From assembly GCF_001412595.2 (NCBI RefSeq), contig NZ_CP012640.2:2356001-2420000 (forward strand): a stretch of DNA of 64,000 nucleotides. The letters are read 5' to 3'. Below, piece after piece: positions 17,000-46,968 of the stretch. The notes under the pieces are model-generated. The model ran no database searches. It was not told the DNA's origin and saw nothing but the letters and a program-made list of their open reading frames with translations. The first letter of the stretch is position 1; each line of letters starts with the position of its first letter. A program made the position numbers and the translations under genes. The DNA comes from Massilia sp. WG5 (GTDB lineage: Bacteria > Pseudomonadota > Gammaproteobacteria > Burkholderiales > Burkholderiaceae_D).

Positions 17000-17014
17000 A
17001 GTAGTCAAACTACA
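17000..17014. promoter_or_regulatory. HexR-like palindrome between alpha-glucosidase and pullulanase
   Basis: AGTAGTCAAACTACA matches TGTAGT-N3-ACTACA at 14 of 15 positions (core GTAGT-CAA-ACTAC, a perfect inverted repeat). It lies 66 bases before the pullulanase start used here and about 150 bases upstream of the alpha-glucosidase. Sites of the same pattern occur only at other maltodextrin genes (37813, 46697, 46954). The 226-base intergenic stretch is otherwise AT-rich, as expected for two divergent promoters. Confidence 0.7.
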
Positions 17015-17079
17015 GAATCAATGTTAGGGTGACAAACTTGCCGCCCGGCCGCATGCCGCGTTTCTCAATGAGCTATCCG

Positions 17080-19821
17080 ATGACAAGTAAAACCATTACC
17101 GCTGCAGGCCTCCTGTCCCTGCTGGCCTGCGGCGGCGTCCACGCCGCGATTTCTCCCGAAGCCTGCGACAGCAAGGCTTTCCAGACCGTCCTGCATCCGG
17201 CCGCCGCCAGCTTCGACGCGCGCGCCGTCTGGCTCGACCGGCGCCTGATCGCCTTCCCCGGCGCCGCGCCGAACGGCGTGTTCAAGCTCTACTACTCGCC
17301 AGTCGCGTCGATCGCCGCGCCGGTCGGCGGCAAGGTCGCGGGCGCGGCCGGCGCCCTCGGCCTCGGCCTGTTCCAGGGCGGCGTCCCTGCGCCGCTGGCC
17401 GCGCGCTTCAAGTGGCTGGGCGCCGGTCCGGTGCTGCAGCTGGATGAGAACGACGTCACCCGGATGAACGAACTGCACCGCGGGCAGCTGGTGCTGGTGC
17501 AGGAAGATGCGCAAGGCAGCGTGCTCGCCGCCACGCGCGTGCAGGCGGCGGGTGCGCTGGACGACCTGTATGCCGCGGCGGCCGGCCTGGACAAGCTCGG
17601 CGTCGACATCGACAGCGCCAGCAAGCGCACCGGCTTCAGCGTATGGGCGCCGACCGCCCGCCAGGCCGCCGTCTGCGTCTACAATTCGCCCACGTCGATG
17701 GCGCGCGCGGTCTACCAGCTGAACAGCGACCCGGCCACCGGCGCCTGGAGCGCCCAGGTGCCGGGAGACCTCACCGGCAAATACTACAAATACGTGGTCG
17801 ACGTGCCGGTCGACGGCGCGGCGGGATCCGGTGGCATCGTACGCAACCTGGTGACCGACCCCTACTCCATCAGCCTGAGCACCGATTCGAAGCGCAGCTA
17901 TATCGCGCGCCTGGATTCGCCGCGCCTGACGCCGGCCGGCTGGGACGCGCCGTCTCCGCAGACCGTCAGGAACCCGACCGACATGGTGGTCTACGAGCTG
18001 CACGTGCGCGACTTTTCGATCAACGACGACAGCGTGCCCGAGCGCCTGCGCGGCAAGTACGGCGCCTTCACCCGCCTCGAGTCCAACGGCATGCGCCACC
18101 TGGCCGCGCTGGCGAAAAGCGGCCTGACCGACATCCACCTGCTGCCGGTGTACGACATCGGCAGCGTGCCCGAGGTGGGCTGCGCCGTGCCGAAGCCCAG
18201 CGGCGCGCCGGACAGCGAAAACCAGCAGGCGCTGGTGAAGAAGACCGCGGAAACCGACTGCTTCAACTGGGGCTACGACCCCTACCATTACAACGCGCCG
18301 GAAGGCAGCTATGCGAGCGATCCGGCGGACGGCGCGCGCCGCGTGATCGAATTCCGCGAGATGGTGGGCAGCCTGCACAAGCTCGGCCTGCGGGTCGGCA
18401 TGGACGTGGTGTTCAACCACACCTTCATCGCCGGCCAGAACGAGAAGTCGGTGCTCGACCGCGTCGTGCCCGGCTACTACCACCGCCTGAACGCCACCGG
18501 CGGCATCGAGCGCTCGACCTGCTGCGACAATACGGCCACCGAAAACCTCATGATGGGCAAGCTGATGATCGATTCGGTGGCCCTGTGGGCAACCCAGTAC
18601 AGGATCGATTCCTTCCGCTTCGACCTGATGGGGCACCAGCCGCGCGCCACGATGGAAGCGCTGCAGCGGAAAGTGAACGCGGCCGCCGGCCATCCGGTGC
18701 AGCTGATCGGCGAAGGCTGGAACTTCGGCGAAGTGGCCAACGGCGCGCGCTTCGTGCAGGCCTCGCAACTGTCGCTGAACGGCAGCGGCATCGGCACCTT
18801 CAACGACCGCACCCGCGACGCCGTGCGCGGCGGCTCGGCCGGCGATTCCGGCGAGGCGCTGTTTGCGCGCCAGGGCTGGATCAACGGCCTGGTCTACGAT
18901 CCGAACGCCCACGCCGGCGCCCATTCGGCCGAAGAGCTGATGCGCACCGCGGACCTGGTGCGCGCCGGCCTGGCGGGCTCGATCCGCAGCTACCCGCTGC
19001 AGACCTGGGACGGCAAGACCGTGCCGCTCGACGCCATCGACTACAACGGCCAGCCGGCAGGCTATGCCAGCGAGCCCTCGGAAGTCGTCAACTACGTCGA
19101 GAACCACGACAACCAGACCCTGTACGACATCGACGTGTTCAAGCTGCCGGCATCGACCTCCAGCCAGGACCGCGCGCGCGTGCAGGTGCTGGGCATGGCG
19201 GTGGACGCCTTCGCGCAGGGCATCGCCTACTACCACGCCGGCATCGACATACTGCGTTCGAAGTCCCTGGACCGCAACAGCTTCAACTCGGGCGACTGGT
19301 TCAACCGCCTCGACTGGCGCTACCGCGACAACTACTTCGGCACCGGCCTGCCCCCAAGCGAGGACAACGGCAAGGACTACGCGCTGATCAAGCCCCTGCT
19401 GTCGAATCCGGCGTTCAAGCCGGCGCCGTCGGACATCGCCTTCGCGCGCGACGCCTTCCGCGACCTGCTGGCCATCCGCGCCAGCTCGGCCCTGTTCCGC
19501 CTGCCGACCGCCGCCGAGATCAAGCGCCGCCTGCGCTTCTTCAACACCGGCCCAGGCCAGAACCCGACCGTGGCGGCGGCCCACCTGGATGGCGAAGGCT
19601 ACCCGGGCGCCAACTTCAGGGGCATCAGCTACTTCATCAACGTCGACAAGGTCGGGCACACGGTGCTTGATCCGCAGGCCGTGGGCAAGACGATGCGCCT
19701 GCATCCGGTGTTCCTGGCCCCGAACGTGGCCGACAAGCGCGCGACCCAGGCGCGCTTCGATCCGGCCAGCGGTTCCTTCGATATTCCGCCGCGGACGGCG
19801 GTGGTGTTCGTGGAGGACTGA
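17080..19821 (+). CDS. Exported pullulanase-type alpha-1,6-glucosidase (GH13)
   Basis: About 913 residues from ATG 17080. Other in-frame starts (17029 GTG, 17053, 17068) cannot be excluded, because none has a clear ribosome binding site. The hydrophobic leader LLSLLACGG could be a type I signal or, through LLAC, a lipoprotein signal as in Klebsiella pullulanase. N-terminal pullulanase and CBM48 modules (~20-290) precede the GH13 barrel: VFNH (His447), SFRFDLMGH with Asp515, LIGEGW with Glu545, and VENHDNQ with Asp677. YNWGYDP-like [17 protein letters not shown] is a type I pullulanase signature. It debranches alpha-1,6 links in starch products. It is divergent from the alpha-glucosidase operon. 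Confidence 0.92.
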
Positions 19822-19823
19822 GC

Positions 19824-21614
19824 TCAGCCCTTGCGCGCAAACCCGTCCACGCTCCAGTCCTCGCTCCCGACCCCATGCCGGACGGTGAACAGCCCGTCCG
19901 GATCGTAGCGCTGCTTTATCTTCAGCAGCTTCGGATAGTTGGGTCCCCAATAGGCATCCTGCCAGCGCTGCTGGAAGAAGTCGCTTTCCGAAACGTAGGC
20001 GCCGGCGTCCGGCGCCGCCTTGCGCAGCAGGTCCATCGCGCGGCGGATCTTGGCGGCGCGGCGCTGCGCTTCCTTGTCGTCGACCTTCGCGCCCGGCATG
20101 CCGGGATAGGCGGCGTCGCCGCCGCCGGCGATGATGGCCAGGGCGAAGGCGTCGACCACGCCCGGATGGCTCGAGGTAGCGCGGGTCGCGGCCAGCGCCT
20201 GCGCCGGTGCACCGGCGATCCCCTTGTTGAAGTGCAGTTCGACCCACCATTGCTGCGACGCCGCGCACAGGCTGTCCACCAGCCGGGCCTGCGCGCCCTC
20301 GTCCAGCAGGCTGGCCGGCAGCCAGGTCGATTCGTAGCCGTGGATGTACCAGCCGACCTGGCCGCGGTCGCCCTGCCACACGACGTGGTGCGCCGGCGCA
20401 CCCTCGCGCTCGTCGCGCGCCATGATGCCGGGCGCCGTCTTGCTCCAGAAATCCCCATCCCAGAAGCGCCGCGCCGGCACCGCCATGATGGTCGGTTCCT
20501 TGAAGTTGTAGTCTTCGCTGGCGCGCACCCAGTCCAGGAAGGGCGCCCACAGCGCCTTCGCCTCGGCGCCGCTCAAGCCCTGGAACACCATCGACAGGTG
20601 CAGCTGCCTGCCCTCGCGCAGCGACACGGTTTCGCCCCAATGCGGATTGAACAGGCGTTCATGGTAGAAGGCGACGAAGCGCGCGACCAGGGCCTTGAAC
20701 GCCGCATCGGAGTCCGCCGTGATCTCGCCGAACACGCCGCCGAAGAATTCCGGCAGCTCGTGGGTGCGCAGCGTCATGCGCGTGACGACGCCGAACGACC
20801 CTCCCCCGCCGCCCTTGATGGCCCAGAACAGGTCCGGATTCGTGTACGCGTTGGCGATCCGGGCCTGGCCATCCGCGGTGACGATCTCCGCCTCGAGCAG
20901 GCTGGCGGCGGCGGTGCCGTAGCGCTTCGAGAAGCTGCCGAAGCCGCCGCCCTGCACCAGTCCCGGCACGCCGACCGTGGTGCAGCCGCCGCCCTGCACG
21001 TAGCGGCCGGCCTTCGTGGTCACGGCCGTGTAGGCATCGATCCACATCGCGCCGGCGCCGACGCTCACCGCGGGCACGGCCTCGCTTCCCTTGCCGCCCT
21101 GGGGTACGAAGGCGTCGATGACGGTGACCTCGTTCATGGCGCGCGGCCACACCAGCAGCGAGTCCGGCGCGTTCGACCCGCCCTTGTAGCTGTGACCGCC
21201 GCCCTTCACGACCAGGCGCAGCTTGTGGGTGCGGGCGAAGTTGACGGCGGCGACGATGTCGGCCGTCTCGCGCGCCGCCACCGCATAGGCGCTCGGCTGC
21301 GACAGCCAGGCATCCTGCCAGCCGCTGGTCTGGGTCAGCGCGGGATTGTCGCCGACGAAGTACGGGTTCTTCAGCTGCTCGCGCATGGCGGCGCAGGCGG
21401 CGGCATCCGCGGCGCAGCCGGCGAACGGCGGCGCCAGCGGCATCAGCCGTCCCGAGGTCGCGCGCCGCAGCCCGTCCCACTCGGCGGCGCTGGGCCAGCC
21501 GGCGCCGCCGGGGCGCACCCGCGAAAGAACCGTCTTCGCCCGCGCCGGTTCGGGCACGCCGCCCGCCAGCAGCGCTGCGCCCAGGGAAGCCTTCAATACC
21601 TCGCGTCGTTTCAT
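19824..21614 (-). CDS. Tat-exported FAD-linked oxidase (BBE/AA7 type)
   Basis: A 596-residue protein with a twin-arginine-like leader (KRREVLK, then a hydrophobic stretch), an FAD-binding PCMH domain (~105-285) and a C-terminal BBE segment (WGPNYPKLLKIKQRYDP). His141 in GGGHSYKGGS and Cys211 in GGGCTTVG are placed for the two covalent flavin links typical of berberine-bridge/oligosaccharide oxidases. Its end lies 2 bases from the end of the converging pullulanase. The family includes gluco-oligosaccharide oxidases (CAZy AA7) but also alkaloid and alcohol oxidases, so maltodextrin oxidation is a suggestion from context only. Confidence 0.85.
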   Translation of the reverse strand: MKRREVLKASLGAALLAGGVPEPARAKTVLSRVRPGGAGWPSAAEWDGLRRATSGRLMPLAPPFAGCAADAAACAAMREQLKNPYFVGDNPALTQTSGWQDAWLSQPSAYAVAARETADIVAAVNFARTHKLRLVVKGGGHSYKGGSNAPDSLLVWPRAMNEVTVIDAFVPQGGKGSEAVPAVSVGAGAMWIDAYTAVTTKAGRYVQGGGCTTVGVPGLVQGGGFGSFSKRYGTAAASLLEAEIVTADGQARIANAYTNPDLFWAIKGGGGGSFGVVTRMTLRTHELPEFFGGVFGEITADSDAAFKALVARFVAFYHERLFNPHWGETVSLREGRQLHLSMVFQGLSGAEAKALWAPFLDWVRASEDYNFKEPTIMAVPARRFWDGDFWSKTAPGIMARDEREGAPAHHVVWQGDRGQVGWYIHGYESTWLPASLLDEGAQARLVDSLCAASQQWWVELHFNKGIAGAPAQALAATRATSSHPGVVDAFALAIIAGGGDAAYPGMPGAKVDDKEAQRRAAKIRRAMDLLRKAAPDAGAYVSESDFFQQRWQDAYWGPNYPKLLKIKQRYDPDGLFTVRHGVGSEDWSVDGFARKG

Positions 21615-21701
21615 GCCTCATCCCTTGTTATCAGTTTATTCACGGAAAGCATGAATCAACTTGGCGCGATGAGCAAGCTGTTTGAAACGACAGGGACCGG
21701 T

Positions 21702-21800
21702 TTACACGCCGGTCGGCCGGGCCAGGCCGGAACCGAGCGCGCACAACATGATCAGGGTGGCCATGATCGCCAGGCGCTTGATGTCATCCGGATGCATCAT
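21702..21800 (-). CDS. Small predicted membrane peptide of 32 residues
   Basis: ATG (21798-21800, followed at once by a second ATG) to TAA (21702-21704), preceded by GGAGA at 5-6 bases. The product begins with the charged MMHPDDIKR, continues with a ~16-residue hydrophobic stretch (LAIMATLIMLCALGSGLA) and ends RPTGV, the layout of a single-pass small membrane protein. It lies alone between glucokinase-RpiR 2 and the FAD oxidase, on the same strand as both. No family recognised. The rest of the 249-base gap (21615-21863) shows no other gene. Confidence 0.5.
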   Translation of the reverse strand: MMHPDDIKRLAIMATLIMLCALGSGLARPTGV

Positions 21801-21863
21801 GCGGCTCTCCAATGAGGGAATACCCCATTGTGGAATGCCGCACGGAAACATCATTGAAGACGA

Positions 21864-23735
21864 TCAGATATCGAGGTGTGAAATCAGCAGGCGACGCCGT
21901 TCGCTATCCCCTTCGCCGTGGTCGCCGTTCTCCTGGCCCAGTGAGATGCCGACCGCCATGATGTCGATGAGGAGAAGCTGCAGGATGCGCGAGATCATCG
22001 ACAGGAAGGTGGTCGAGTCTTCGCTGTGGTCGACCGCCAGGCAGATGCTGGCCTTGCGCGCCAGCGCCGACTTGCTGCTGGTGATGGCGATGACGTCGGC
22101 GCCCGCCGCGCGCGCGGTGTCGACGGCCGACAGCAGTTCCGGCAGCTGGCCGGTGGTCGAGATCGCGATCACCACGTCGCCCGGCCCCAGCAGCTCGGCC
22201 GCCAGGCTGAAGAGGTGCGAATCGCCGTAGGACGAGGTCGGGATGCGGAAGCGGAAGAACTTGTGCTGGCCGTCCAGCGCCACCACGCGCGAGTTGCCCA
22301 TCGCGTAGAACTCGACGCGCTTGGCGCGGCGCAGGATCTCGATGGCGCGGTCGATCGAGTTCACGTCGAGCTGGTCGCGGAACTTCAGGATCGCCGACAC
22401 CGTGTTGTCGATGACTTTGGCCGACAGGTCGTGCGTGCTGTCGCTCATCCGCACCTGGCTGTGGCGCACCGGGATGGTGCCGGTCAGGCTGCCCGCGAAC
22501 TTGAGCTTGAAGTCGGCCAGGCCGGAAAAGCCCAGCGAGCGGCAGAAGCGGATCACGGTCGGCTGGCTGACGTCGGCCAGCTTCGCGATCTCGGCGATCG
22601 GCTCGGACAGCACCTTGCGCGGATGCTCCAGCACCAGGGTCGCGACGCGCTGCTCGGCCGGCGAGAGTTCATGCTGCAGGTGCTGCACGCGCTCCATCAG
22701 CGTGTTGGCGCCGGTGCGGCCGCGCAGGTGCTCCGAGAGGATGCTGGCCACGCCGTACAGCGCCGGGTTCGGCGTCATGATCACGTAGGTCGGGATCTGC
22801 GCCAGGTAGCTCGAGAAGCGGCCCTTGGCTTCGAAGCGGGCGCGGAACGGCGAGGTGGCGAACCACTGCGCCACGCGCGGCACGATGCCGCCGCCGATGA
22901 AGATGCCGCCGAAGGCGCCGAGGGTCACGGCCAGGTTGGCGGCCGCCCCGCCCAGCATGCCGGCGAAGCATTCCAGCACTTCCAGGCACAGCGGGTCCTG
23001 CTGCTCGAGGGCGGAGCTGACGATGTCGGCGGCGTTGCGAGGTGGAGCCTGCACGCCGTTGCGCTGGGCCAGCGCGCGGTAGATGATCTCCATGCCGGGG
23101 CCGGAGATCAGGCGTTCGTTCGACACGTGCTGCCACTCGCGCCAGGCGTACTGCAGGATCGCGAACTCGCGCTCGTCGGCCGGCGCGAAGTTGACGTGGC
23201 CGCCCTCGCTGCCGAGGGTGACGAAGCCATCGACGGTCGGAATCACGCCGGACACGCCCAGGCCCGTGCCCGGTCCCAGCACGCCGGCCACCGCGTGCGG
23301 CTGCGGGGTGCCGCCGCCGATCTGCAGCAGCTCGTCCGGCTTGAAGCCCGGCAGCGCCATCGCCAGCGCGGTGAAGTCGTTCACGATCAGCAGCGTGGTC
23401 AGGCCGAGTGCGCGCCGCACCTCGTCGGTCGAGAACTGCCAGTCGCGGTTGGTCATGCGGATGAAATCGCCGCTGATCGGATTCGCCAGCGCGAAGGCGG
23501 CGTGGCTGATCCGCACTTCGCCCAGCTGCGCCCTGGCCTGCGCCAGATAGGCGTTCAGCAGCGGGACGATGCCGGTATAGTCGTCACACAGCAGCACGGC
23601 GACATTGCGCAGCACGCCCGGCGCGCTCTCCAGCGCAAACCGCGCATGGGTCGCGCCGATGTCGGCCAGCAGGCGGGGGCCGTCGGAGTAGGCGGCGCGA
23701 GGTTGCTTCTGTTCGGTGTCGGACTCGGTATTCAT
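21864..23735 (-). CDS. glk: Bifunctional glucokinase / RpiR (HexR-like) regulator, copy 2
   Basis: A 623-residue paralogue of the protein at 13336, with the same order: glucokinase (~22-345; LLADIGATHARFALESAPG, VNDFTALAMALPGF, GPGTGLGVSG, SEGGHVNFAP), RpiR helix-turn-helix (~355-435; ADVSQPTVIRFCRSLGFSGL) and SIS domain (~465-605; VVIAISTTGQLPELL). The first 15-20 residues and the end (an extra GDHGEGDSERRR before the common LLISHLDI ending) differ from copy 1. I chose ATG 23735. An upstream TTG at 23777 would add 14 residues. It is not in an operon with a glycosidase, and no TGTAGT-N3-ACTACA site precedes it. Confidence 0.94.
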   Translation of the reverse strand: MNTESDTEQKQPRAAYSDGPRLLADIGATHARFALESAPGVLRNVAVLLCDDYTGIVPLLNAYLAQARAQLGEVRISHAAFALANPISGDFIRMTNRDWQFSTDEVRRALGLTTLLIVNDFTALAMALPGFKPDELLQIGGGTPQPHAVAGVLGPGTGLGVSGVIPTVDGFVTLGSEGGHVNFAPADEREFAILQYAWREWQHVSNERLISGPGMEIIYRALAQRNGVQAPPRNAADIVSSALEQQDPLCLEVLECFAGMLGGAAANLAVTLGAFGGIFIGGGIVPRVAQWFATSPFRARFEAKGRFSSYLAQIPTYVIMTPNPALYGVASILSEHLRGRTGANTLMERVQHLQHELSPAEQRVATLVLEHPRKVLSEPIAEIAKLADVSQPTVIRFCRSLGFSGLADFKLKFAGSLTGTIPVRHSQVRMSDSTHDLSAKVIDNTVSAILKFRDQLDVNSIDRAIEILRRAKRVEFYAMGNSRVVALDGQHKFFRFRIPTSSYGDSHLFSLAAELLGPGDVVIAISTTGQLPELLSAVDTARAAGADVIAITSSKSALARKASICLAVDHSEDSTTFLSMISRILQLLLIDIMAVGISLGQENGDHGEGDSERRRLLISHLDI

Positions 23736-23800
23736 TGCCCAAGGATACCATTGATTGAATGGCACCAAAACAGTCAAAACGCCATCCCTGCAATCACCTC

Positions 23801-23826
23801 GTCATCCCCGCGCAGGCGGGGACGAC
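23801..23826. repeat. REP-like palindrome, GTCGTCCCC family
   Basis: GTCATCCCCGC-N4-GCGGGGACGAC, an 11-bp stem with one mismatch, followed by a half copy (GCGGGGACGACGAG, about 23835-23848). It lies between the end of the DHA2 exporter gene and the start of glucokinase-RpiR 2, both on the minus strand. Confidence 0.75.
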
Positions 23827-23855
23827 GGTAGTAAGCGGGGACGACGAGCTGTCAA

Positions 23856-25798: not shown

Positions 25799-25808
25799 GA
25801 TGATTAGA

Positions 25809-25825
25809 TTAGGTAGGCTACCTAA
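25809..25825. promoter_or_regulatory. Probable MarR operator
   Basis: TTAGGTAG-G-CTACCTAA is a perfect inverted repeat, 11 bases upstream of the MarR start codon. Length and position are those of MarR-family operators, which block the promoter of their own operon. Confidence 0.75.
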
Positions 25826-25892
25826 CCATATTAGGACAAAAGCTTGGCGAGTTCAAGCGTGCGAATCGGGCCTCGTGCTGACCTTCCTCAAA

Positions 25893-32908: not shown

Positions 32909-34600
32909 TCAATCCAGCGCAATCAGCGCCACCGGCGCGCGCAGCTCGAACTGCACCTTGCCTTTCGCAACCATGGCGCTCTTGCCGGTGTACCAGTCAC
33001 GCACGGTCTGGCCGTCCGAGAACACGCCCGCCACCGGGATCGCCACCGTGCGGTCCTGCGGCAGGCCGATCGCCACCACCACGCGGTCGCTCACGCCGCC
33101 CTTGTCATAGGTGCGCTTGAAAACGTAGGGGCTCGATTGCAGCATCTGGTGCATGCCCGCGCCGACCGCCGGATGCGCGTGGCGGAAGCGGGCCAGGCGG
33201 GCCCAGTGCTCGCGCACCTCGGCCACGCCGAACAGGCCGACGCGGGTGTTGTTCTTCAGCTGGTCCCAGTTCATGAAGGAGCGCAGGTTGGCGTCGCCTT
33301 CCGCACCGTCGATCTTCAGCACGCGCGCGGTCTCGTCGCCGTAGTAGATCTGGGCCTGGCCAGGCGCCAGCAGCAGTTTGTTCGCCGCTTCCATCGGGTG
33401 CTCGCGCAGCGCGTCGAAGGGATGGCCGTCGTCGTGCGAGTCCAGGTAGTTCAGCACCGAGTAGCCCTTCAGCGGGCCGTTCAGCGCCGCCGAATAGCTT
33501 GAAAACAGCTGTTCGTAGTCCTGGCGCGCATCGCCCGCCATGCTGAAGTTGATCATGCTGTCGAAGCCGTTGTCGTAATAATCGACCTTCGCGCCGCCGT
33601 CATAGGTGAACTCGCGGCCGGCCTTGACCGAGTAGCCGTAGGTCTCGGCCGTCATGAAGAACGGCAGGTTGCCGATCCTGGCCACCGCCTGCTTGCCGGC
33701 CGGGGTGCGCTTCCAGTCCTCGTAGGCGCTGCTGGCGACCTTCTTGAGGTCCTTCCACACGCCCGGTTCGGTGTGCTTGACGGTGTCGGCGCGGAAGCCG
33801 TCGAAGCCGTACTTGCGCACCCAGTCGGCGTGCCATTTCATCAGGTAGTAACGCGGCGCACGCGGGTAGCCGGTGCGCTTGAAGAAGTCGTTCAGCTCGG
33901 CCATCTCGCGCTCGTAGCGCCCTTCCTTCTTCCACTTCGCCGCCACCGCCGGCGGCACCTCGACCTTCTCGTTGCTGTCGGTGCGGAAGTCCGGCAGGTT
34001 CTTCACCAGCGTGCAGCTGACCGTACCCTTGAAGTCCTTGAAGTTGCAGGCCGGCTCCGTGCGCACCCACTCGGCGGGCCAGACCGGATCCTCGGCCGTC
34101 ACCGGACCGGTGTGGTTCATCACCACGTCCAGCAGCACGCGGATGCCACGCGCGTGGGCGGCGTCGACCAGCTCGTGCATGTCCTTCTCGGTGCCGAGAT
34201 TGGCGTCGATGCTGGTGAAGTCGCGCGCCCAGTAGCCGTGGAAGCCGTAGGACTTGCCGGTGCCTTCGTCGGTGGAACCATGGATCTGCTCCACCGGCGG
34301 CGTGATCCAGATCGCGTCCACGCCCAGGTCGTCGAAATACCCCTCCTTGATCTTCTGCGTGACGCCGGCCAGGTCGCCGCCCATGAAGCCGCGCGCCGTT
34401 GCGGCGTCATCCTTGCGGCCGTAGGCATGGTCGTTGGCCGGGTTGCCGTTGTTGAAGCGGTCCGTCAGCAGGAAGTAGACGGTCGCGTTCTCCCAGGTGA
34501 AGGGCTTGCCTTTGACCGGCGACAGGTCCGGCGCGGCGGACGCGGCGGACGCGGCGCCGAAGGCAAGCATCAGGGAAACGGCAAGGGCAGACAATTTCAT
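32909..34600 (-). CDS. Exported GH13 alpha-amylase (MalS-like, GH13_19 type)
   Basis: A 563-residue amylase with a signal peptide (cleavage near SAA-APD, residue ~23). Motifs: LLDVVMNHTG (region I), GFRADTVKH with nucleophile Asp272, MTAETYG with Glu319, and LDSHDDGH with Asp390, where the usual Asn of NHD is Ser. A long insertion between residues 165 and 250 separates regions I and II, as in MalS-type periplasmic amylases. It cuts maltodextrins in the periplasm. AAAGGA precedes ATG 34600. It is the third gene after the SLC45 transporter and phosphoglucomutase, with a REP-like element in the gap. Confidence 0.92.
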   Translation of the reverse strand: MKLSALAVSLMLAFGAASAASAAPDLSPVKGKPFTWENATVYFLLTDRFNNGNPANDHAYGRKDDAATARGFMGGDLAGVTQKIKEGYFDDLGVDAIWITPPVEQIHGSTDEGTGKSYGFHGYWARDFTSIDANLGTEKDMHELVDAAHARGIRVLLDVVMNHTGPVTAEDPVWPAEWVRTEPACNFKDFKGTVSCTLVKNLPDFRTDSNEKVEVPPAVAAKWKKEGRYEREMAELNDFFKRTGYPRAPRYYLMKWHADWVRKYGFDGFRADTVKHTEPGVWKDLKKVASSAYEDWKRTPAGKQAVARIGNLPFFMTAETYGYSVKAGREFTYDGGAKVDYYDNGFDSMINFSMAGDARQDYEQLFSSYSAALNGPLKGYSVLNYLDSHDDGHPFDALREHPMEAANKLLLAPGQAQIYYGDETARVLKIDGAEGDANLRSFMNWDQLKNNTRVGLFGVAEVREHWARLARFRHAHPAVGAGMHQMLQSSPYVFKRTYDKGGVSDRVVVAIGLPQDRTVAIPVAGVFSDGQTVRDWYTGKSAMVAKGKVQFELRAPVALIALD

Positions 34601-34658: not shown

Positions 34659-37704
<3,046 letters not shown>

Positions 37705-37745: not shown

Positions 37746-37783
37746 CCATGTAGCAAAGTAACATGGCGATTGTTGAGTGTCAA
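37746..37783 (-). promoter_or_regulatory. Promoter and overlapping palindrome of the SLC45 transporter operon
   Basis: On the minus strand a perfect -35 box TTGACA (37783-37778) is followed after 17 bases by TACTTT (37760-37755). A palindrome with arms CCATGT (37746-37751) and ACATGG (37761-37766) covers this -10 box. Its inner part, TGTAGC-AAA-GTAACA on the plus strand, is a degenerate relative of the HexR-like site upstream. A protein bound here would block the promoter. Confidence 0.55.
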
Positions 37784-37812: not shown

Positions 37813-37827
37813 TGTAGTCAAATTACG
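37813..37827. promoter_or_regulatory. HexR-like site upstream of the SLC45 transporter operon
   Basis: TGTAGTCAAATTACG matches TGTARTNNNAYTACA at 14 of 15 positions. It lies between the deaD stop and the transporter promoter, about 110 bases upstream of the transporter start. Confidence 0.65.
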
Positions 37828-37833
37828 ACTGCA

Positions 37834-39657
<1,824 letters not shown>

Positions 39658-39788
39658 GTAGGAAATTCTCTTAAAAATCGAAGGCAAACCTGCAGTTTAC
39701 TCTCTCACGGGGCGCTAAGCCCGGATTATTTGCTGGAGACGCGGCAGGCATACCACGATGTCAACAGCCGCTGCTACACTTCCCGACC

Positions 39789-40688
39789 ATGCCACGTCCC
39801 GATTTCAACCATCTGCAAGCCTTCGTCCTGGTCGCGCGCGAGCGCAGTTTCACGCGCGCCGCCGCCCAGCTGGGCGTGTCGCAATCGGCCCTCAGCCACA
39901 CGATCCGCGCGCTGGAATCGAAGCTGGGCGTGCGCCTGCTGACCCGCAGCACCCGCGGCGTCGCGCCGACCGAGGCCGGCGACAAGCTGTACGCCTCGCT
40001 CGAGCCGCATTACGAAGCCATCGAAGCAGGCCTGTCGGCGCTGGGCGAGGCGCGCGACAGGCCGGCCGGCACGATCCGCATCACGACCCACGACCACGCG
40101 GCCGGCACGATCCTGTGGCCGAAGCTGTCGAAGGTGCTGGCAAGCTACCCCGACGTCAGGGTCGAGATCAGCATCAACTACGGCCTGATCGACATCGTCG
40201 CCGAGCGCTTCGATGCCGGCGTGCGCCTGGGGGCCCAGGTCGCCCGGGACATGATCGCGGTGCGCATCTCGCCGGACATGAAGCGCGCGGTGGTCGGCAG
40301 TCCCGCCTACCTGGCCGGACGGCCGCTGCCGCAAACGCCGCAGGACCTGACGCGCCATAACTGCATCAACATGCGCCTGCCGACCTATGGCGGCCTGGCG
40401 CCGTGGGAATTCGTCAAGGACGGCAAGGAACTGCAGGTGCAGGTCGAGGGCCAGGCCATCTTCAATACCACGCCGCAGAAACTGCAGGCGGCGCTGGACG
40501 GCGCCGGACTGGCCAGCCTGCCGGACGACATGGTGCGCGAGCACGTCGCCGCCGGCCGCCTGCAGCGGGTGCTGGAAGACTGGTGCCCGACCTACCCCGG
40601 CTACCACCTCTACTACCCGAGCCGCCGCCAGGCATCGCCGGCCTTCGCGCTGGTGGTCGAGGCGCTGCGCTGGCGCTCCAATTCATGA
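39789..40688 (+). CDS. LysR family regulator of the tautomerase-CMD-cupin operon
   Basis: A 299-residue LysR protein with helix-turn-helix ARERSFTRAAAQLGVSQSALSHTIRALESKLG (residues ~15-47) and a substrate-binding domain (~90-290). It is closely similar to the LysR at 28680 (both end with a YYPSRRQ motif near the C-terminus). It lies directly upstream of three co-directional genes, and a T-N11-A box overlaps its own stop codon, so it likely activates them. Such LysR-tautomerase-CMD-cupin sets are common in proteobacteria. Confidence 0.88.
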   Translation: MPRPDFNHLQAFVLVARERSFTRAAAQLGVSQSALSHTIRALESKLGVRLLTRSTRGVAPTEAGDKLYASLEPHYEAIEAGLSALGEARDRPAGTIRITTHDHAAGTILWPKLSKVLASYPDVRVEISINYGLIDIVAERFDAGVRLGAQVARDMIAVRISPDMKRAVVGSPAYLAGRPLPQTPQDLTRHNCINMRLPTYGGLAPWEFVKDGKELQVQVEGQAIFNTTPQKLQAALDGAGLASLPDDMVREHVAAGRLQRVLEDWCPTYPGYHLYYPSRRQASPAFALVVEALRWRSNS

Positions 40689-40699
40689 GATTTCCTCAT
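40685..40699. promoter_or_regulatory. LysR-type box upstream of the tautomerase operon
   Basis: ATGAG-ATTTC-CTCAT is a perfect inverted repeat with T-N11-A spacing. A further palindrome CTCATGAG lies at 40727-40734. A -10-like TATAGT (40746-40751) has no good -35 box at 17 bases, which suits an activator-dependent promoter for the operon starting at 40784. Confidence 0.6.
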
Positions 40700-40783
40700 A
40701 TCGGCATTGAATAAACCCCGGCTATTCTCATGAGTCGGCGCTGGCTATAGTGGAACCCTGATCACGCATCGAGGATTCATGCC

Positions 40784-41026
40784 ATGCCGCATATCATCGT
40801 CAAACTCTGGCCGGGAAAATCCCGGCGCCACAAGCAGCAACTGGCCGACGAGATCACCCGCAGCGTCACCAGCGTCCTCGGCTACGGCGAGGAATCGGTC
40901 TCGGTCGGCTTCGAAGAGGTCGGCGCAGGCGACTGGATGAAGCAGGTCTACGAACCGGATATCGTCGCCGCGCAGGACCGTCTCTTCAAGAAACCCGGCT
41001 ACGGCCCGCTGCGAGGCCAGTCATGA
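40784..41026 (+). CDS. 4-oxalocrotonate tautomerase family protein (PptA-like)
   Basis: An 80-residue tautomerase-superfamily protein beginning Met-Pro-His-Ile-Ile-Val; Pro2 becomes the catalytic N-terminal proline after removal of Met. The [22 protein letters not shown] helix and the [11 protein letters not shown] strand fit the PptA subgroup. GAGG lies upstream. The stop overlaps the start of the CMD gene by 4 bases. The substrate is unknown. Confidence 0.88.
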
Positions 41027-41697
41027 TGTCACCCGCATTGAAGCACTATACCCAGGACCTGGTGCTCGGCGAACTGTGGCAGCGCCCCGGCCTGGCGCCG
41101 CGCGACCGCAGCCTGGTCACCTTGTCCGTGCTGGTGTCGAAGAACCAGTCCCAGGACCTGCCCTTCTACCTGAACCGCGCGCTCGACAGCGGCGTCGAGC
41201 CGGGCGAGATCGCGGAGCTGATCACCCACCTGGCCTTCTATTCGGGCTGGGCCAATGCCAGCGCGGCCGACGCCGCGGCCAAGACCGTGTTCGCCGGACG
41301 GCAGATCGATCCCGCCACGCTGCCGCCGGCGGCACCGGCGCCGCTGCCGCTGGACGAACAGGCCGAGGCGGCGCGCGCGAAAAACGTCGACCAGAACTTC
41401 GGCGAGGTGGCGCCCGGCGTCGTCAAGTACACGACCGAGGCCCTGTTCCGCGACCTCTGGCAGCGCCCCGGCCTGGCGCCGCGCGACCGCAGTCTGGTCA
41501 CCGTCAGCGCCCTGGTGGCGAACGGCCAGGTCGCCCAGCTCACCTACCACCTCAAGCGCGCCATGGACAATGGCCTGACCGGGCAGCAGGCCTCCGAGGC
41601 GCTGACCCAGCTCGCCTTCTACGCAGGCTGGCCGAACGTGTTTTCGGCCATGCCGGTCTTCAAGGACGTTTTCGCACAACGCAGCAGAAAGGAATGA
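41023..41697 (+). CDS. Tandem carboxymuconolactone decarboxylase (CMD) domain protein
   Basis: A 224-residue protein with two CMD domains (residues ~8-90 and ~135-220), each with the sequence [17 protein letters not shown] / [17 protein letters not shown] followed by the helix containing HLAFYSGW or QLAFYAGW. The AhpD-type CxxC pair is absent (no cysteine at all), so this is not a peroxidase of that kind. It lies between the tautomerase and cupin genes, with overlaps at both ends (4 bases at its start; its stop lies beside the next start). Confidence 0.88.
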
Positions 41698-41699
41698 AC

Positions 41700-42119
41700 A
41701 TGCATCTCAAACCTGTGGGCTCGCAGCCCTCGATGAAAGGCCCCGAGGAATACTTCACGGGCACCGTGCGGATCGATCCGCTGAACAGCGCGCCGGCGCC
41801 CTCGCGCGTGTCCTGCGCGAGCGTGACGTTCGAGCCGGGCGCGCGCTCGGCCTGGCACACGCATCCGCTGGGCCAGACCCTGGTGGTCACGAGCGGCTGC
41901 GGCTGGACCCAGTGCGAGGGCGAGCCGATCGTCGAGATCCGCGCCGGCGACGTGGTCTGGTGCCCGCCCGGCCACAAGCACTGGCATGGCGCATCAAGGA
42001 CCACGTCGATGACGCACATCGCCATCCAGGAAGCGCTGGATGGCGTGAACGTGGTATGGCTGGAGAAGGTCAGCGACGAGCAGTACCTGGCCGGCCCGCC
42101 GCCACGATCGCCGCAATGA
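41700..42119 (+). CDS. Cupin domain protein
   Basis: A 139-residue single cupin from ATG 41700, with AAAGGA six bases upstream; an ATG at 41694 would add two residues. Metal-binding motifs are [14 protein letters not shown] (first cupin motif) and PPGHKHWHG (second). The closest well-described relatives are manganese cupins of the hydroxynitrile lyase/GraTol group, but the reaction here is unknown. Its last 50 bases overlap the end of the converging halogenase gene. Confidence 0.85.
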
Positions 42120-43602
42120 AGTCCTTGTGCGCCGGCATCACGTCGACGCACTTGCCGATCACCTGCTCGATATTCCCGAGGAAGTCCTGCAGCTCCTTCT
42201 CGTCGAGCAGGCCGGCCAGCGGATGGTGACCCTGGGCGCGCACGCCCTGGCCGTGCAGCACCTGCTGCCAGCCGACTTCGGCGAACAGCTCGTTGTTCTC
42301 GCGGACCACCCGGCCGTGGCTCTTGTACAGCTCGAGCTTGCGGCGCAGGGTCTCCGGGATCTCCATCGTGCGGCAGTGGTCCCAGAACGGCGTGTCGTTC
42401 CGTTCGGTCGCGTGGTAGTGCAGGATGATGAAGTCGCGGATGCGCTCGACTTCGAAGTCGCACTGGGCGTTGAACTCGTCGATGTCGGCCTGGTTGAAAC
42501 CGGCATCCGGGAAGAAGCCCACCAGGCGCGACACGGTCGACTGGACCAGGTGGATCGAGGTCGACTCCAGCGGCTCCAGGAAGCCCGAGGACAGGCCGAT
42601 CGCGACCACGTTCTTGTTCCAGGTCTTCTTGCGCTTGCCGGCCGTGAAGCGCAGCATCTTCGGATCGGCCAGCGCCTTGCCGTCCAGGTTCCGCATCAGG
42701 ATGGCGGCGGCTTCGTCGTCGCTCATGAAGCGGCTCGCATACACGTGGCCGTTGCCGGTGCGGTGCTGCAGGCCGATCCGCCATTGCCACCCGGCCGGGC
42801 GCGCGCTCGCGCGCGTGTACGGCGGCAGATCGCCCGCCAGCTCGCAGGGCACGGCCCAGGCCCGGTCGCAGGGCAGCCAGTGGCTCCAGTCCTCGAAGCC
42901 GGTCTTCAGGGTCTGTTCGATCAGCAGCGCGCGGAAGCCCGAGCAATCGATGAACAGGTCGCCCGCGATCGTCTCGCCGTTTTCCATCACCACCGAGTCG
43001 ATGAAGCCATCGGCACGCTGGCGCACGTCGACCACCTTGCCCTCGGTGCGGACCACGCCATGGTGTTCGGCGTAGTTGCGCAGGTAGCGCGCGTACAGGC
43101 CGGCGTCCAGGTGGAAGGCGTAGGGGATGTCGGCCAGCGGCGAATTCGGCATGTCGGTGGACGGGCGCATGAACTTGCCGGCCTTGGCCGCCATGCGGTT
43201 GAGCGAATAGCGTTCCAGGTCCGGCGCCTTGCCCATCTGCCAGGCGCGCAGCCAGTACTGGAAGAACTCCAGTGTCCACAGCGGCTGGCCGAAGGTGCCG
43301 AAGCCGTGCATGTAGCGTTCGCCGAGCCGGCCCCAGTCCTCGAACTCGATGCCGAGCTTGAAGGTGGCGCGGGTCTCGCGCATGAATTCGTCCTCGTTGA
43401 TGCCGAGGGCGGTATTGAACAGGCGGATCATCGGGATCGTCGATTCGCCGACGCCGACGGTCGATATCTCGTCCGATTCGATCAGGCGGATCGCGTAGCG
43501 GTTCTGCAGGAGGCGCGAGAGCGAGGCTGCGGTCATCCAGCCGGCGGTGCCGCCGCCGACGATCACGATGTTCTTGAGTGGGGTAAGTGTCTCGTTTTTC
43601 AT
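42070..43602 (-). CDS. Flavin-dependent tryptophan-halogenase-family protein
   Basis: A 510-residue protein with FAD motif [16 protein letters not shown] (residues 13-28), catalytic Lys82 in [10 protein letters not shown] (Lys79 of PrnA) and Glu346 in FLEPLES. The halogenase signature WxWxIP reads Trp272-Gln-Trp-Arg-Ile-Gly277, so the proline is replaced by glycine. Such genes beside TonB receptors are typical of carbohydrate loci in Xanthomonas, Caulobacter and Sphingomonas, where some members halogenate indoles in vitro but the cellular role is unclear. It is on the same strand as the TonB receptor, with a terminator-like hairpin between them. Confidence 0.9.
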
Positions 43603-43621
43603 TGTGTTAGCAGCATATGTA

Positions 43622-43660
43622 AAAAGCCTCCTGCGCGGTAGTACCGGGCAAGAGGCTTTT
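43622..43660 (-). terminator. Terminator or attenuator between TonB receptor and halogenase
   Basis: AAAAGCCTC and GAGGCTTTT form a 9-bp stem with a 21-base loop. On the minus strand the stem runs into TTTTT. It sits 31 bases after the receptor stop and 19 bases before the halogenase start. It probably reduces read-through, giving much receptor and little halogenase. Confidence 0.75.
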
Positions 43661-43691
43661 GTTTAACTGTCGGCTTGCGCCAACACCTGAA

Positions 43692-46457
43692 TTACATCTT
43701 GTAGTTCAGGCCGAACAGCACGGTGCGGCCGTAGCGGGTGTCTTCGATGACGTTATCCTTGGTCTTGCGATAACGCTTGAAGTGCGCGTCGTTGACGTTG
43801 TTCATCTCCACCAGGAAGGACAGGCCTTTCATCGGGCCGGTCTGGATCTCGTAGCCGAACTGCAGGTCGAGAACCTTGTCGCCGTTGATGTAGGTGAGTT
43901 CGCGGTCGCCGGTGTTGGTGGCGACTTCACCGATGAAGTCCGAACGATAACGCTCTGCGGCACGGGCCGAGAAGCCTGCCTTCTCGTAGTACAGGGTCAG
44001 GCTGGCGACGCGGCGCGACAGGCCCGGCAGGCCCATGGTGCCCGAACCGCCTTCGGCCGTGTCAGGCAGGTTGACTGCGCTGCTGTTCTGCGAGGCGTTG
44101 GCCACCACGCCGAAACCGTCCAGGTAACGGCTGAACACGTTCAGCGGCATCGACGCTGCCAGTTCCACGCCCTTGATGTTGCCGCCATTGCCGTTCACCG
44201 GCGAGGAGAACAGGCCGATGTTGGTCGGCGCCTTGACGGTGGTCGGCTGCAGGTACGGCGTGTAGTCGATCGTGCGGCTGGTGGTCACGATGTAAGTGTC
44301 CAGCTTCTTGTAGAACACCGCGGCGCTCACGTAGGCCTTGCTGTCCCAGTACTTCTCGTACGACAGGTCGATGCCCTTGGCGCGGAACGGATCCAGTTTC
44401 GGGTTGCCGCCGCTGCCGTTGTAGATGCCGCGGGTCGCGTCGTAGCCGAAGTTGCCGCTGGCGCGCATGTCGTTCAGGGTCGGACGGGCCATGATCTTCG
44501 ACAGCGAGAAGCGCAGTGCCTGCTGGTTGCCCAGGTCGCCGATCAGGTTCAGGCTCGGCAGGAAGTCGTTGTAGCTGGTGCCTGCGGAGACCGGCGAGGT
44601 CGGACGGGTCGCGTCGCTGGTGCCGCCGGCGGTGTCCACCGAGTAGGCGGTCGAATCCTGCTTGGTGTGAACCATCTGCAGGCCCAGGGCGCCGCGCAGC
44701 GGCATGCTGCCGAGTTGCGAATCGATGCCCAGCTTGGCGAAGGCGGTCGTGACCTTTTCATTCACGATCCAGTCCTTGTTCGTGATGTCCGGGTGCATCT
44801 TCTGCTTCAGGTCGTACAGCGCGTTCAGGTTCGCGACCGGATCGAAGGTGATCACGTTGATGCCGGTGCCGGCGGCCATGCCCGAACCGCTGCCGGCCGG
44901 GTAAGCCTCGGTGGCGAACGGGCTGCTGCTGCCCTTCACCGACAGCAGGTCTTCGGTGTACTCGCGGGTCTTCGAACGGTTCGAGACGTTCACGCCGGCG
45001 GTCAGCTTGCTGAAGAACATGCCTTCCGGCAGGTCACGCGTTGCGTCCAGGCGGATCGCGTCGATCTTGTCGTAGACGTGCGGGAACTTGACGTAGCCAG
45101 CCTGGATGTCGGCGCCGCCCCAGCCCTGCGGGTCGGTCAGCTTGACGACGTTCGGGTCGGCGTAGTTCAGGCCCGGCACGAAGTTCTCGCTGCCGGCGGT
45201 GAACTTGACGGTGTCGAGGGTGGTCGAGCTGCCGTAGGTTTCGATGTTGGTGCCGGTACGCTCGGCCGAGTTGTACGACAGGTCCAGGTTGGCGGTCCAG
45301 TCCTGGGTCACGCGCAGCTTGTTGTTCCAGCCGATCGACTTGGTGGTGTCGCTCCACGACACGGCGTCGTTACGCAGCACGGCGCGCACGTTGTTGAAGG
45401 CGCCCGAGGTGACGTTGTTGCCCGACAGGACAGGGTTGATCAGCTGGCCCGGCTGGTCGTAGGCATTGTTGGTGCCGTCGTTCAGCGGCATCTGGATGCC
45501 ACGGGTGCGGTTGTTGCGGTCGTACTTCGTGTACAGCAGGTCGACGGTCGAGGTGAAGTCCTTGCTCGGACGGTACTGGATCACGCCCATCAGGCCGTTG
45601 CGCGACTGCGAATAGCCGTCGGTCCAGGCGTTGAAGCCGTTGTACGGGACGTTGACGTCCTGGCCATTGTACTTGGCGGTGCCGTTGCCCCAGGATTCGA
45701 AGCGGGTGGTGTCGCCGCTCTTGCCCTGCAGGCGGGCGAAGCCGAAGGCCACGCCGATCTGGCGGTTCGCGAACTGGTCGATGTACGAGAAGGTGAAGCG
45801 GTTGCCGTGGCCCTTGTCGTTATCCATGCCCAGGCCGGTCTTTTCGCGGCGGTAGTTCACGGCCATGGTGCGCTTGGCGAAGTCCAGCGGACGCACGGTC
45901 TGCAGGTCGACGGTGCCCGACAGGCCCTGGCCGACCAGGGCGCCGTCCGGGGTCTTGTAGATCACCACGCCCGACAGCAGCTCGGACGGGTACTGGTCGA
46001 ATTCGACGCCGCGCGAGTCGCCGGTCGAGACTTGCTCGCGGCCGTTCAGCAGGCCGGTCGAGAAGTCCGGCGACATGCCGCGGATCGAGATCACGGCCGC
46101 CTGGCCGTTGGTGCGCTGGGCGGTCACGCCCGGCAGACGGGCGATCGATTCGGCGATCGACTGGTCCGGCAGCTTGCCGATGTCTTCGGCCGAAATCGCC
46201 TCGACGATGGAGTCGTTGTTCTTCTTGACGGAGATGGCCGCCTCGATACCGCGGCGGATGCCGGTCACCTGGACGGTCTGGATGCTGGAATTGCTTGCGC
46301 CGGTCGCCGCGGCGTCCTGGCCGCTGGTCGTTTCTTGCGCGAGCGCGGCGTGGCTGGCCAGCGCCATGAAAACGGCGCAGCCGGCTGCAACCGGGCTGAG
46401 CTTGAATGCGATGCTGCCCGGCACAGTGCGCGCCGCGCGCTTATTGATCAGGTTCAT
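43692..46457 (-). CDS. TonB-dependent receptor for maltodextrin
   Basis: A 921-residue outer-membrane receptor: signal peptide (ending near ALA-QET), plug domain (~45-165; VQVTGIRRGIEAAISVKK, AEDIGKLPDQSIAESIARLPGV, RGMSPDFSTGLLNGR) and a 22-strand barrel ending in FGLNYKM. It belongs to the large TonB receptor group of Caulobacter and Xanthomonas (TIGR01782-like), whose best-known member takes up maltodextrins. Strong GAGGGGA before ATG 46457 excludes a longer form from 46520. Context (divergent GH13 amylase, HexR-like sites in the shared 527-base gap) supports a starch-derived substrate. Confidence 0.93.
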   Translation of the reverse strand: MNLINKRAARTVPGSIAFKLSPVAAGCAVFMALASHAALAQETTSGQDAAATGASNSSIQTVQVTGIRRGIEAAISVKKNNDSIVEAISAEDIGKLPDQSIAESIARLPGVTAQRTNGQAAVISIRGMSPDFSTGLLNGREQVSTGDSRGVEFDQYPSELLSGVVIYKTPDGALVGQGLSGTVDLQTVRPLDFAKRTMAVNYRREKTGLGMDNDKGHGNRFTFSYIDQFANRQIGVAFGFARLQGKSGDTTRFESWGNGTAKYNGQDVNVPYNGFNAWTDGYSQSRNGLMGVIQYRPSKDFTSTVDLLYTKYDRNNRTRGIQMPLNDGTNNAYDQPGQLINPVLSGNNVTSGAFNNVRAVLRNDAVSWSDTTKSIGWNNKLRVTQDWTANLDLSYNSAERTGTNIETYGSSTTLDTVKFTAGSENFVPGLNYADPNVVKLTDPQGWGGADIQAGYVKFPHVYDKIDAIRLDATRDLPEGMFFSKLTAGVNVSNRSKTREYTEDLLSVKGSSSPFATEAYPAGSGSGMAAGTGINVITFDPVANLNALYDLKQKMHPDITNKDWIVNEKVTTAFAKLGIDSQLGSMPLRGALGLQMVHTKQDSTAYSVDTAGGTSDATRPTSPVSAGTSYNDFLPSLNLIGDLGNQQALRFSLSKIMARPTLNDMRASGNFGYDATRGIYNGSGGNPKLDPFRAKGIDLSYEKYWDSKAYVSAAVFYKKLDTYIVTTSRTIDYTPYLQPTTVKAPTNIGLFSSPVNGNGGNIKGVELAASMPLNVFSRYLDGFGVVANASQNSSAVNLPDTAEGGSGTMGLPGLSRRVASLTLYYEKAGFSARAAERYRSDFIGEVATNTGDRELTYINGDKVLDLQFGYEIQTGPMKGLSFLVEMNNVNDAHFKRYRKTKDNVIEDTRYGRTVLFGLNYKM

Positions 46458-46662
46458 GTGTCCCCTCAAATCGTTCATATCTATGTTTTTTCCCGAAAAC
46501 ACTAGCCGGAGAGCCATCACTACGGGAGCCAGAAGAAAAACGTTCTTAGACGTTCTGTCAAGGATTCTGTACTAAAACTAGATGCACTGTCAACGGAACT
46601 TGCCTCTGACTACGCCAATGTGGATTTTTTATGTGCTTTTCTTAGAGTGAAGCCGAATATCG

Positions 46663-46679
46663 TTGTATGCGAGCTACAA
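46663..46679. promoter_or_regulatory. Degenerate HexR-like palindrome
   Basis: TTGTATGCGAGCTACAA keeps the outer arms TTGTA/TACAA at the same spacing as the site 34 bases to the right, but its inner bases differ. It may be a weaker second binding site. Confidence 0.4.
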
Positions 46680-46696
46680 AGTCGATATACAGACAA

Positions 46697-46711
46697 TGTA
46701 GTCGTACTACA
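46697..46711. promoter_or_regulatory. HexR-like site, perfect TGTAGT-N3-ACTACA
   Basis: TGTAGTCGTACTACA is a perfect inverted repeat, about 240 bases upstream of the TonB receptor start and 274 bases upstream of the amylase. This is the best match of the four sites in the window. Confidence 0.75.
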
Positions 46712-46745
46712 AACCGCTTACTTTGCACCAACATGGCTTGCTTTT

Positions 46746-46760
46746 GCACCAGCTTGGTGC
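46746..46760. promoter_or_regulatory. Second palindrome type, GCACCA-N3-TGGTGC
   Basis: GCACCA-GCT-TGGTGC is an inverted repeat; its left arm (TTTGCACCA) is repeated directly 20 bases earlier (46722-46730). It could bind a second regulator, for example of the LacI family, which often control maltodextrin receptors. No such gene lies in the window. Confidence 0.45.
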
Positions 46761-46953
46761 GAATTTTCGTAGTAGATTTTCAACCTAGATCAAGGAATAC
46801 GTTCGAAAGGATGTAATTACTCTATTGAAATGCTGTAGCAAAACTAGCGATTCAACGGAGTACTGTCGTTGATGCCATATCTGCGCTGGTGTATTCTCTA
46901 GGAAACAATGCAAAGGCGGCATATTTTTCAAGACACTTCTGTCCGCCAGCCTA

Positions 46954-46968
46954 TGTAGTTGCACTACT
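46954..46968. promoter_or_regulatory. HexR-like site at the amylase start
   Basis: TGTAGTTGCACTACT matches the palindrome at 14 of 15 positions. It ends 3 bases before the ribosome binding site (GGAG, 46972-46975) of the amylase at 46985, so a bound protein would block transcription elongation or the promoter directly. Confidence 0.7.

Follow-up and report, generated by a model that had tools for sequence, protein, structure and literature searches.

RccR and HexR, two regulators of the RpiR family, are the closest described counterparts of the system considered here, a set of 15-bp palindromic sites of the form TGTAGT-N3-ACTACA that lies at starch genes in a 64-kb stretch of the Massilia sp. 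WG5 genome and is probably bound by glucokinase-RpiR fusion proteins encoded among these genes. RccR of Pseudomonas, a sensor of 2-keto-3-deoxy-6-phosphogluconate (KDPG), recognizes a 15-bp consensus composed of TGTAGT and ACTACA with three nucleotides in between, represented at aceE by TGTAGTTTTACTACT and TGTAGTAAAACTACA; its sites are backed by chromatin immunoprecipitation sequencing, surface plasmon resonance and footprinting, and KDPG reduces its affinity for the 15-bp site (PMC5489143). In the RccR tetramer, KDPG is held by S139, H148, R152, H164, S183, S185, S188, K270 and R277, contributed by three subunits (PMC10810197). The HexR consensus is given as TTGT-N7-8-ACAA (PMC4357207). Among the matches listed in our literature searches, no characterised regulon for a glucokinase-RpiR fusion and no maltodextrin regulon in Massilia were found, and nothing relevant combined the palindrome with maltose.

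In this study, we analysed positions 2,356,001-2,420,000 of contig NZ_CP012640.2 from the 6.2-Mb genome (GC content 67%). This whole stretch is called the window, and its first letter is position 1. Pfam and NCBIfam searches placed its alpha-glucan genes in three blocks. Block 1 contains an alpha-glucosidase gene and the fusion gene for GlkR1, divergent from a pullulanase gene. Block 2 comprises genes for an MFS transporter, phosphoglucomutase (pgm) and an amylase, and block 3 a TonB-dependent receptor (TBDR) gene with a halogenase-like gene, divergent from a cyclomaltodextrinase (CMD) gene and two more genes. We consider it quite probable that the palindrome and its degenerate copies are the operators of an alpha-glucan regulon, bound by the RpiR/RccR-type domain of GlkR1 and of a second fusion, GlkR2. 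An earlier note on this DNA had proposed one regulon over the maltodextrin genes with the RpiR part of the fusions as regulator. The comparative evidence favors both proposals, and it extends the regulon by more sites in the window and by alpha-glucan genes outside it.

Results

Operator sites in the window

Eight predicted operators were located in the window, five in the TBDR/CMD intergenic region, two before the MFS operon and one between the alpha-glucosidase and pullulanase genes. Operator A (TGTAGTCGTACTACA, 46697..46711) is the window's sole exact palindrome. Operator B (TGTATGCGAGCTACA, 46664..46678, plus strand) lies 33 bp from it, and operator C (TGTACTAAAACTAGA, 46568..46582, plus strand) covers the spacer and the −10 side of the likely TonB-receptor promoter, where it sits between TTGACA and a −10-like hexamer as read by eye and spacing. 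Operator D (TGTAGCAAAACTAGC, 46834..46848, plus strand) is found upstream of the presumed CMD promoter and operator E (TGTAGTTGCACTACT, 46954..46968) immediately before the CMD gene. Upstream of the MFS-pgm-amylase operon lies an operator that is degenerate in the window (TGTAGTCAAATTACG, minus-strand form CGTAATTTGACTACA, 37813..37827, minus strand), followed by TGTTACTTTGCTACA (37749..37763, minus strand) at the expected −10 place of the MFS promoter. The remaining operator, AGTAGTCAAACTACA (17000..17014), separates the alpha-glucosidase gene on the minus strand from the pullulanase gene on the plus strand.

The sites at 17000, 37813, 46697 and 46954 had been described in the earlier note as sharing one sequence that was not seen elsewhere. 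All four exist where they had been placed, but they differ from TGTAGT-N3-ACTACA by one, two, zero and one mismatches, respectively. Moreover, they are not alone: the sites at 46568, 46664, 46834 and 37749 are counted as further operators because relatives keep them.

The window holds 18 places with at most three mismatches to the palindrome compared to 3.55 expected, a number reached by none of 100 shuffles. Each intergenic region was also shuffled 2000 times. The TBDR/CMD region has one, two, three and five sites at up to zero, one, two and three mismatches, and none of these numbers was reached by any shuffle. The one-mismatch site of the alpha-glucosidase/pullulanase region was matched in 3 of 2000 shuffles and the two-mismatch site upstream of MFS in 8 of 2000. 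Scores of window sites from our weight matrix are descriptive only, as the matrix was trained on sites including the window's own.

Two other readings of individual sites were rejected. The site at 37813 might have been a by-product of a hairpin behind the helicase gene; most relatives keep TGTTGTTTGACTACA at this place, and a terminator scan found none. For the site at 17000, a reading with a six-nucleotide spacer starting at 16997 (TGTAGT-AGTCAA-ACTACA) was discarded, as relatives have the 15-bp form in common.

The TBDR/CMD region contains two more elements. An inverted repeat, GCACC-N5-GGTGC (46746-46760), is kept in 36 of 58 relatives; it resembles an NtrC site and could also fold as a hairpin. 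At 46768-46782, CGTAGTAGATTTTCA is similar to the HexR-type word before zwf and occurs in 17 of 58 TBDR/CMD regions, among them that of the window; it is a possible second RpiR input. Both elements, which lie beside the operator array, point to further regulators.

Conservation of the sites in the genus

The exact palindrome occurs in 41 of 62 genus genomes, at 44 places (34 for the reversed control pattern). These genomes share history. All 41 have an exact copy beside a TBDR and/or CMD gene, and 41 of the 44 places are of this kind. Among the relatives' loci opened from the exact-copy search, the proportion was 28 of 29; the copies in 11 more genomes, which were located via the CMD gene, and at a second place in G016 are exact there too. 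The three other exact places have as neighbors a chemoreceptor gene (L017), a gene encoding carboxypeptidase-regulatory and fn3-like domains (L084) and a GH31 gene (L085). The last of these copies, in relative G054, precedes the GH31 gene (L085 1501-1515), and given this copy, regulon membership may differ between species.

For the footprint of the TBDR/CMD region, 58 intergenic regions were scored, 28 of which were aligned; outside the 58 are G004 and G026 (distant CMD copy only), G013 (none) and G006 (contig end). Operator A, allowing one mismatch, is present in 51 of 58 regions, in 49 at a fixed spacing from operator C, and genomes without the exact word there mostly have variants such as TGTAGTCGCGCTACA. 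For operator B, the form TGTATT-N4-CTACA, again allowing one mismatch, was found in 53 of 58 regions when operator C was excluded, the window's copy being one mismatch off. Operator C is kept in all 58 regions and follows TTGACA in 48 of them, while operators D and E are kept in 43 and 47 of 50 regions, respectively.

For the MFS and alpha-glucosidase promoters, the 30 most similar of 60 genes each were used. The 37813 site is within two mismatches of TGTTGTTTGACTACA in 28 of the 30 MFS upstream regions and exact in 21. At the 37749 site, all 30 MFS promoters have TGTTAYTTTGCTACA, each with TTGACA at promoter spacing, and the 17000 site appears in the form GTAGTTT-N2-YTAC in all 30 alpha-glucosidase upstream regions.

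Sites in the rest of the genome

Three of the eight places in the whole genome with at most one mismatch lie in the window, i.e. in 1% of the genome; the binomial probability is 6e-5 given the 64-kb window and 0.006 for any window, the window not having been blindly chosen. Two further places are intergenic, one before an isoamylase gene, 75 bp from another site that has two mismatches, and one before a GH97 gene. The remaining three are inside open frames; at L005, the composition rule gives no gene and long open frames run on both strands. Where genes were annotated beside intergenic sites of this kind, they are alpha-glucan genes. Random distribution of the motif, which the earlier note had named as speaking against its proposal, was not seen; the sites cluster at starch genes.

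The looser pattern TGTWRYNNNRYTACA gave 14 rows, as many as its reversed control (14), corresponding to 10 distinct places: MFS, TBDR/CMD, isoamylase, GH97, a GH13 amylase/porin pair, a TonB receptor, a PilZ gene, dnaG and two unannotated places. In the amylase/porin pair, TGTAGTTTAGTTACA lies between the two genes (L279 1501-1515); TGTTGCAGAATTACA is found about 100 bp before the TonB receptor (L278 1501-1515).

The glucokinase-RpiR fusions

GlkR1 (13336..15204, minus strand, 622 amino acids; Pfam) and GlkR2 (21864..23777, minus strand, 637 amino acids; Pfam and NCBIfam) both consist of a glucokinase followed by an RpiR helix-turn-helix and an SIS domain, the latter two above the Pfam cut-offs for PF01418 and PF01380. 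Their glucokinase activity is predicted from the segments NDFTA and EGGH, which are present in all seven fusions compared when aligned to the solved glucokinase 1q18 and which we take to be the catalytic segments of E. coli-type glucokinase. As the earlier note had stated, the RpiR genes of the window are these fusions; elsewhere the genome encodes two further RpiR proteins, a stand-alone HexR-like one behind zwf, which has to be weighed as an alternative regulator, and a distant one adjoining another TonB-receptor gene (L161 2865-6618).

In 50 of 57 genomes, the alpha-glucosidase gene is followed within 120 bp by the GlkR1 gene, and the other seven have one fusion only among the matches listed. 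GlkR2 is encoded on the same strand as MFS and no more than 12 kb behind it in 51 of 60 genomes, and in three of the other nine the two genes are on different contigs. In G001 and G047, the genes for MFS, phosphoglucomutase, amylase and GlkR2 are contiguous on one strand. Here or in relatives, both fusion genes therefore belong to operons starting at a palindrome. In G047 and G049, a single fusion and the stand-alone protein are the only RpiR proteins encoded, and sites are kept; judging by these genomes, GlkR2 without GlkR1 would suffice.

Fusions are uncommon in the order, with 9 of 150 genomes drawn from it matching GlkR2 at an E value of 1e-120 or better. We inspected 80 Burkholderiaceae fusion loci (1.66 Mb), the best 80 of at least 555 relatives, which belong to Burkholderia, Paraburkholderia, Caballeronia, Trinickia, Mycetohabitans and Pararobbsia and are close kin, not independent. 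All 80 loci have exactly one exact palindrome, 2147-2789 bp upstream of the fusion gene and in 79 cases TGTAGTTAAACTACA. Neither the reversed pattern nor TGTAAT-N3-ATTACA was found with at most one mismatch in these 1.66 Mb. The latter form had been given in the earlier note as the known HexR site; the RccR consensus is a closer match to the palindrome. In the one locus of the 80 that was annotated, from Caballeronia, the palindrome precedes zwf-pgl-fusion.

In G118, which belongs to another family, the fusion gene lies about 1.1 kb downstream of sugar ABC-transporter genes, for an ATPase and two permeases, on the same strand; the ATPase scores above the UgpC cut-off and is MalK-like below cut-off, and LamB is encoded nearby. 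The sites before the permeases are TGTAGTTTGACTACT and TGTTGTTTGACTACA, which also occur in the window's genus, the former in 9 of 30 alpha-glucosidase and the latter in 21 of 30 MFS promoters. In the sequences compared, the palindrome travels with the fusion, including in the second family represented by the 80 loci.

Putative ligand site and proposed switch

The RpiR part of GlkR2 aligns with the crystal sequence 8ju9 of an RpiR-family protein, which is taken to be RccR because its residues 139, 148, 152, 164, 183, 185 and 188 are S, H, R, H, S, S and S. GlkR2 retains S139, H148, R152, H164 and S183, with T for S185 and L for S188; the alignment ends before K270 and R277. GlkR1 keeps H148, R152, H164, S183 and the S at 185, with A for S139 and L for S188. 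A phosphosugar ligand of the fusions is likely by this comparison, KDPG in particular uncertain.

The fusions would most likely act as repressors, by their position and by analogy with RccR and HexR, since operators lie on the likely TonB-receptor promoter, at the −10 place of the MFS promoter and on both sides of the presumed CMD promoter. Occupation of operator C and of the 37749 site would then block these promoters, and with five operators in the 449-bp intergenic region of block 3, a tetramer formed through the SIS domains could bridge sites and strengthen repression. Imported maltodextrin would be cut to glucose, which the fusion's own glucokinase domain would convert to glucose-6-phosphate. 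Binding of a phosphorylated sugar, either glucose-6-phosphate or KDPG, to the SIS domain would release the DNA. With the fusion genes in palindrome-headed operons, the switch would also regulate itself.

Discussion

Candidate regulators

Since the fusions lie among the regulated genes and the operator of the stand-alone protein differs, the fusions are the best candidate for the regulator. Several observations weigh against this assignment and against the operator reading as such. The whole genome has 18 places with at most one mismatch to the reversed control pattern compared to eight for the palindrome; therefore, the number of palindromes proves nothing, and a genome-wide count was rejected as a measure of enrichment, the reversed pattern being at least as frequent here. 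What is informative is the location of the sites, not how many there are. A promoter consensus scan gave one match in the TBDR/CMD region, where shuffles have 0.8 on average, and no match upstream of MFS. GlkR1 is apparently not required, as it is missing in 7 of 57 genomes, and the effector is a guess, given the substitutions that the fusions carry at several positions of the RccR ligand site. Nor does the recognition helix decide the regulator: that of the fusions (VSQPTVIRFCRSLG) and that of the stand-alone HexR-like protein (VSEPTVVRFCRTLG) differ very little, and the E in the latter recurs in the solved RccR-like protein. The idea that Q or E in this helix causes the preference for ACTACA or TTTACA was dropped for a related reason: the presumed RccR structure has E, and RccR binds ACTACA.

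The similarity of the helices also suits another explanation, in which the starch operators are bound by the stand-alone protein, while the fusions serve chiefly as glucokinases. The stand-alone is of the same family, and its similarity to the solved RccR-like protein is higher (216.7 bits vs 187.7 for GlkR2). Its gene (G000 2096477) follows zwf in all 30 loci opened, which are the 30 most similar, and the zwf operator GTAGTAAATTTACA, present in 30/30, is only two mismatches from the palindrome; the HexR-type-like word at 46768 in 17 of 58 TBDR/CMD regions also speaks for it. However, the right half of the zwf operator is TTTACA, no starch site of the window lies within two mismatches of the whole word TGTAGTAAATTTACA, and the gene does not lie near the starch genes, whereas the fusions do. 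In G068, which carries a zwf of each kind, sites one and two mismatches away from the palindrome precede the zwf of the fusion, and none precedes the other zwf, which is also without a HexR-type word. We regard control by the stand-alone protein as quite improbable. A division of labor, in which GlkR2 and the stand-alone protein share sites and jointly control starch uptake and the oxidative glucose route, is a possibility that we hold tentatively and that is compatible with control by the fusions. TGTAGT is common to both kinds of site, and in Pseudomonas one ligand is reported to be common to RccR and HexR (PMC5489143). The word at 46768 would provide a site for the second partner in the window, although it is unmatched in 41 of 58 TBDR/CMD regions.

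The regulator might also belong to the LacI, LysR or MarR type, which we consider highly improbable. Maltodextrin genes of other proteobacteria are under the control of LacI-type proteins, and the genome has nine LacI genes. None of them is in the window, and a search of the LacI loci with 14 proteins of the window gave one distant TonB-receptor match (L050) among the receptor and CMD matches listed. A LacI-type binder, the other outcome that the earlier note had set against its proposal, thereby finds no support. Five other regulators of the window (three LysR, one AraC, one MarR) had no match in those parts of three related islands that were compared, and the motif accompanies the fusion in a second family.

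Control by GlkR1 and GlkR2 could be taken one step further by regarding the fusion as a flux sensor, in which glucose-6-phosphate from the glucokinase domain acts on the attached SIS domain. The fusion would then respond to how fast starch yields glucose and not to the metabolite pool alone. The pair, duplicated in this genus, would have taken over starch uptake, with zwf passing to the stand-alone HexR-like protein and its operator changed in the right half, TTTACA for ACTACA. We offer this extension as a doubtful one. Before zwf, two conserved words of the type GTAGTAAATTTAC were also observed (L160 4904-4950), the pattern being present in all 30 loci opened.

The analysis proposes a function and an operator set for the glucokinase-RpiR fusion. 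It suggests that a type of central-carbon regulator (RccR/HexR) has moved to polymer uptake, an enzyme-regulator thus being turned to starch. As enzyme and DNA-binding domain form one chain, it is directly testable whether enzyme turnover drives the gene switch. A natural comparison is provided by zwf, which in two families stands beside two different RpiR proteins with two different operators.

Genes of the blocks and their neighborhood

In block 1, the alpha-glucosidase-like GH13 protein (15207..16853, minus strand) was assigned by Pfam, its best NCBIfam matches being under their cut-offs, and the pullulanase-type alpha-1,6-glucosidase (17029..19821, plus strand; start codon uncertain) by TIGR02103 above cut-off. 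Block 2 is encoded on the minus strand and comprises the MFS sugar transporter (36379..37704), a distant GPH-sucrose family match, phosphoglucomutase (34659..36404; NF005737 above cut-off) and the alpha-amylase family protein (32909..34600; Pfam). In block 3, the TBDR (43692..46520, minus strand; TIGR01782 above cut-off) is followed by the tryptophan-halogenase-like protein (42070..43602, minus strand; Pfam). On the plus strand are the cyclomaltodextrinase-like GH13 protein (46889..48871; Pfam), which likely starts at ATG 46970 or 46985, a glycoside hydrolase-like protein with weak Pfam matches (48927..51872) and an esterase-like protein (51884..52969; Pfam). Outside the blocks, 5075-12939 contains porin, LysR, MFS, enolase-family, HpcH/HpaI, hydroxyacid dehydrogenase and MOFRL-family genes (Pfam), which, judged by their families, look like an aldarate catabolic cluster.

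Comparison with known systems

In the maltodextrin systems of Xanthomonas and Caulobacter, a TonB receptor is found beside alpha-glucan enzymes, as in block 3. The candidate regulator here is of the RpiR and not of the LacI type, in line with the lack of LacI genes in the window. With HexR, the fusions have in common the RpiR family, palindromic operators and a role as repressor, which for HexR concerns genes of sugar-acid pathways and for the fusions is predicted. The known HexR targets are zwf, edd and gap, and with scores of 227.4 (GlkR2) and 214.5 (GlkR1) in NF008451 the fusions stay below the cut-off of 296, as does the stand-alone protein with 264.1. The bifunctional glucokinase/RpiR fusion of the Burkholderia type (NF010701) has the same order of three domains and likewise a palindrome upstream. 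It differs in being encoded with zwf-pgl, as in Caballeronia, where the fusion reaches 1220.4; here, the fusions are duplicated among starch genes and score 801.4 and 809.8, below the cut-off of 920. RccR has no glucokinase domain, recognizes a second, 28-bp type of site and acts on genes of pyruvate, glyoxylate and gluconeogenesis metabolism, among them aceEF; the genes annotated here beside sites of one mismatch or none are alpha-glucan genes. Nevertheless, RccR shares the architecture of HTH_6 and SIS domains with the fusions, and its operator TGTAGT-N3-ACTACA is identical to the exact site at 46697, a match of sites from which binding is predicted. As proposed for this locus, RccR has two operators in one promoter as well as sites on core promoters and on that of rccR itself (PMC5489143).

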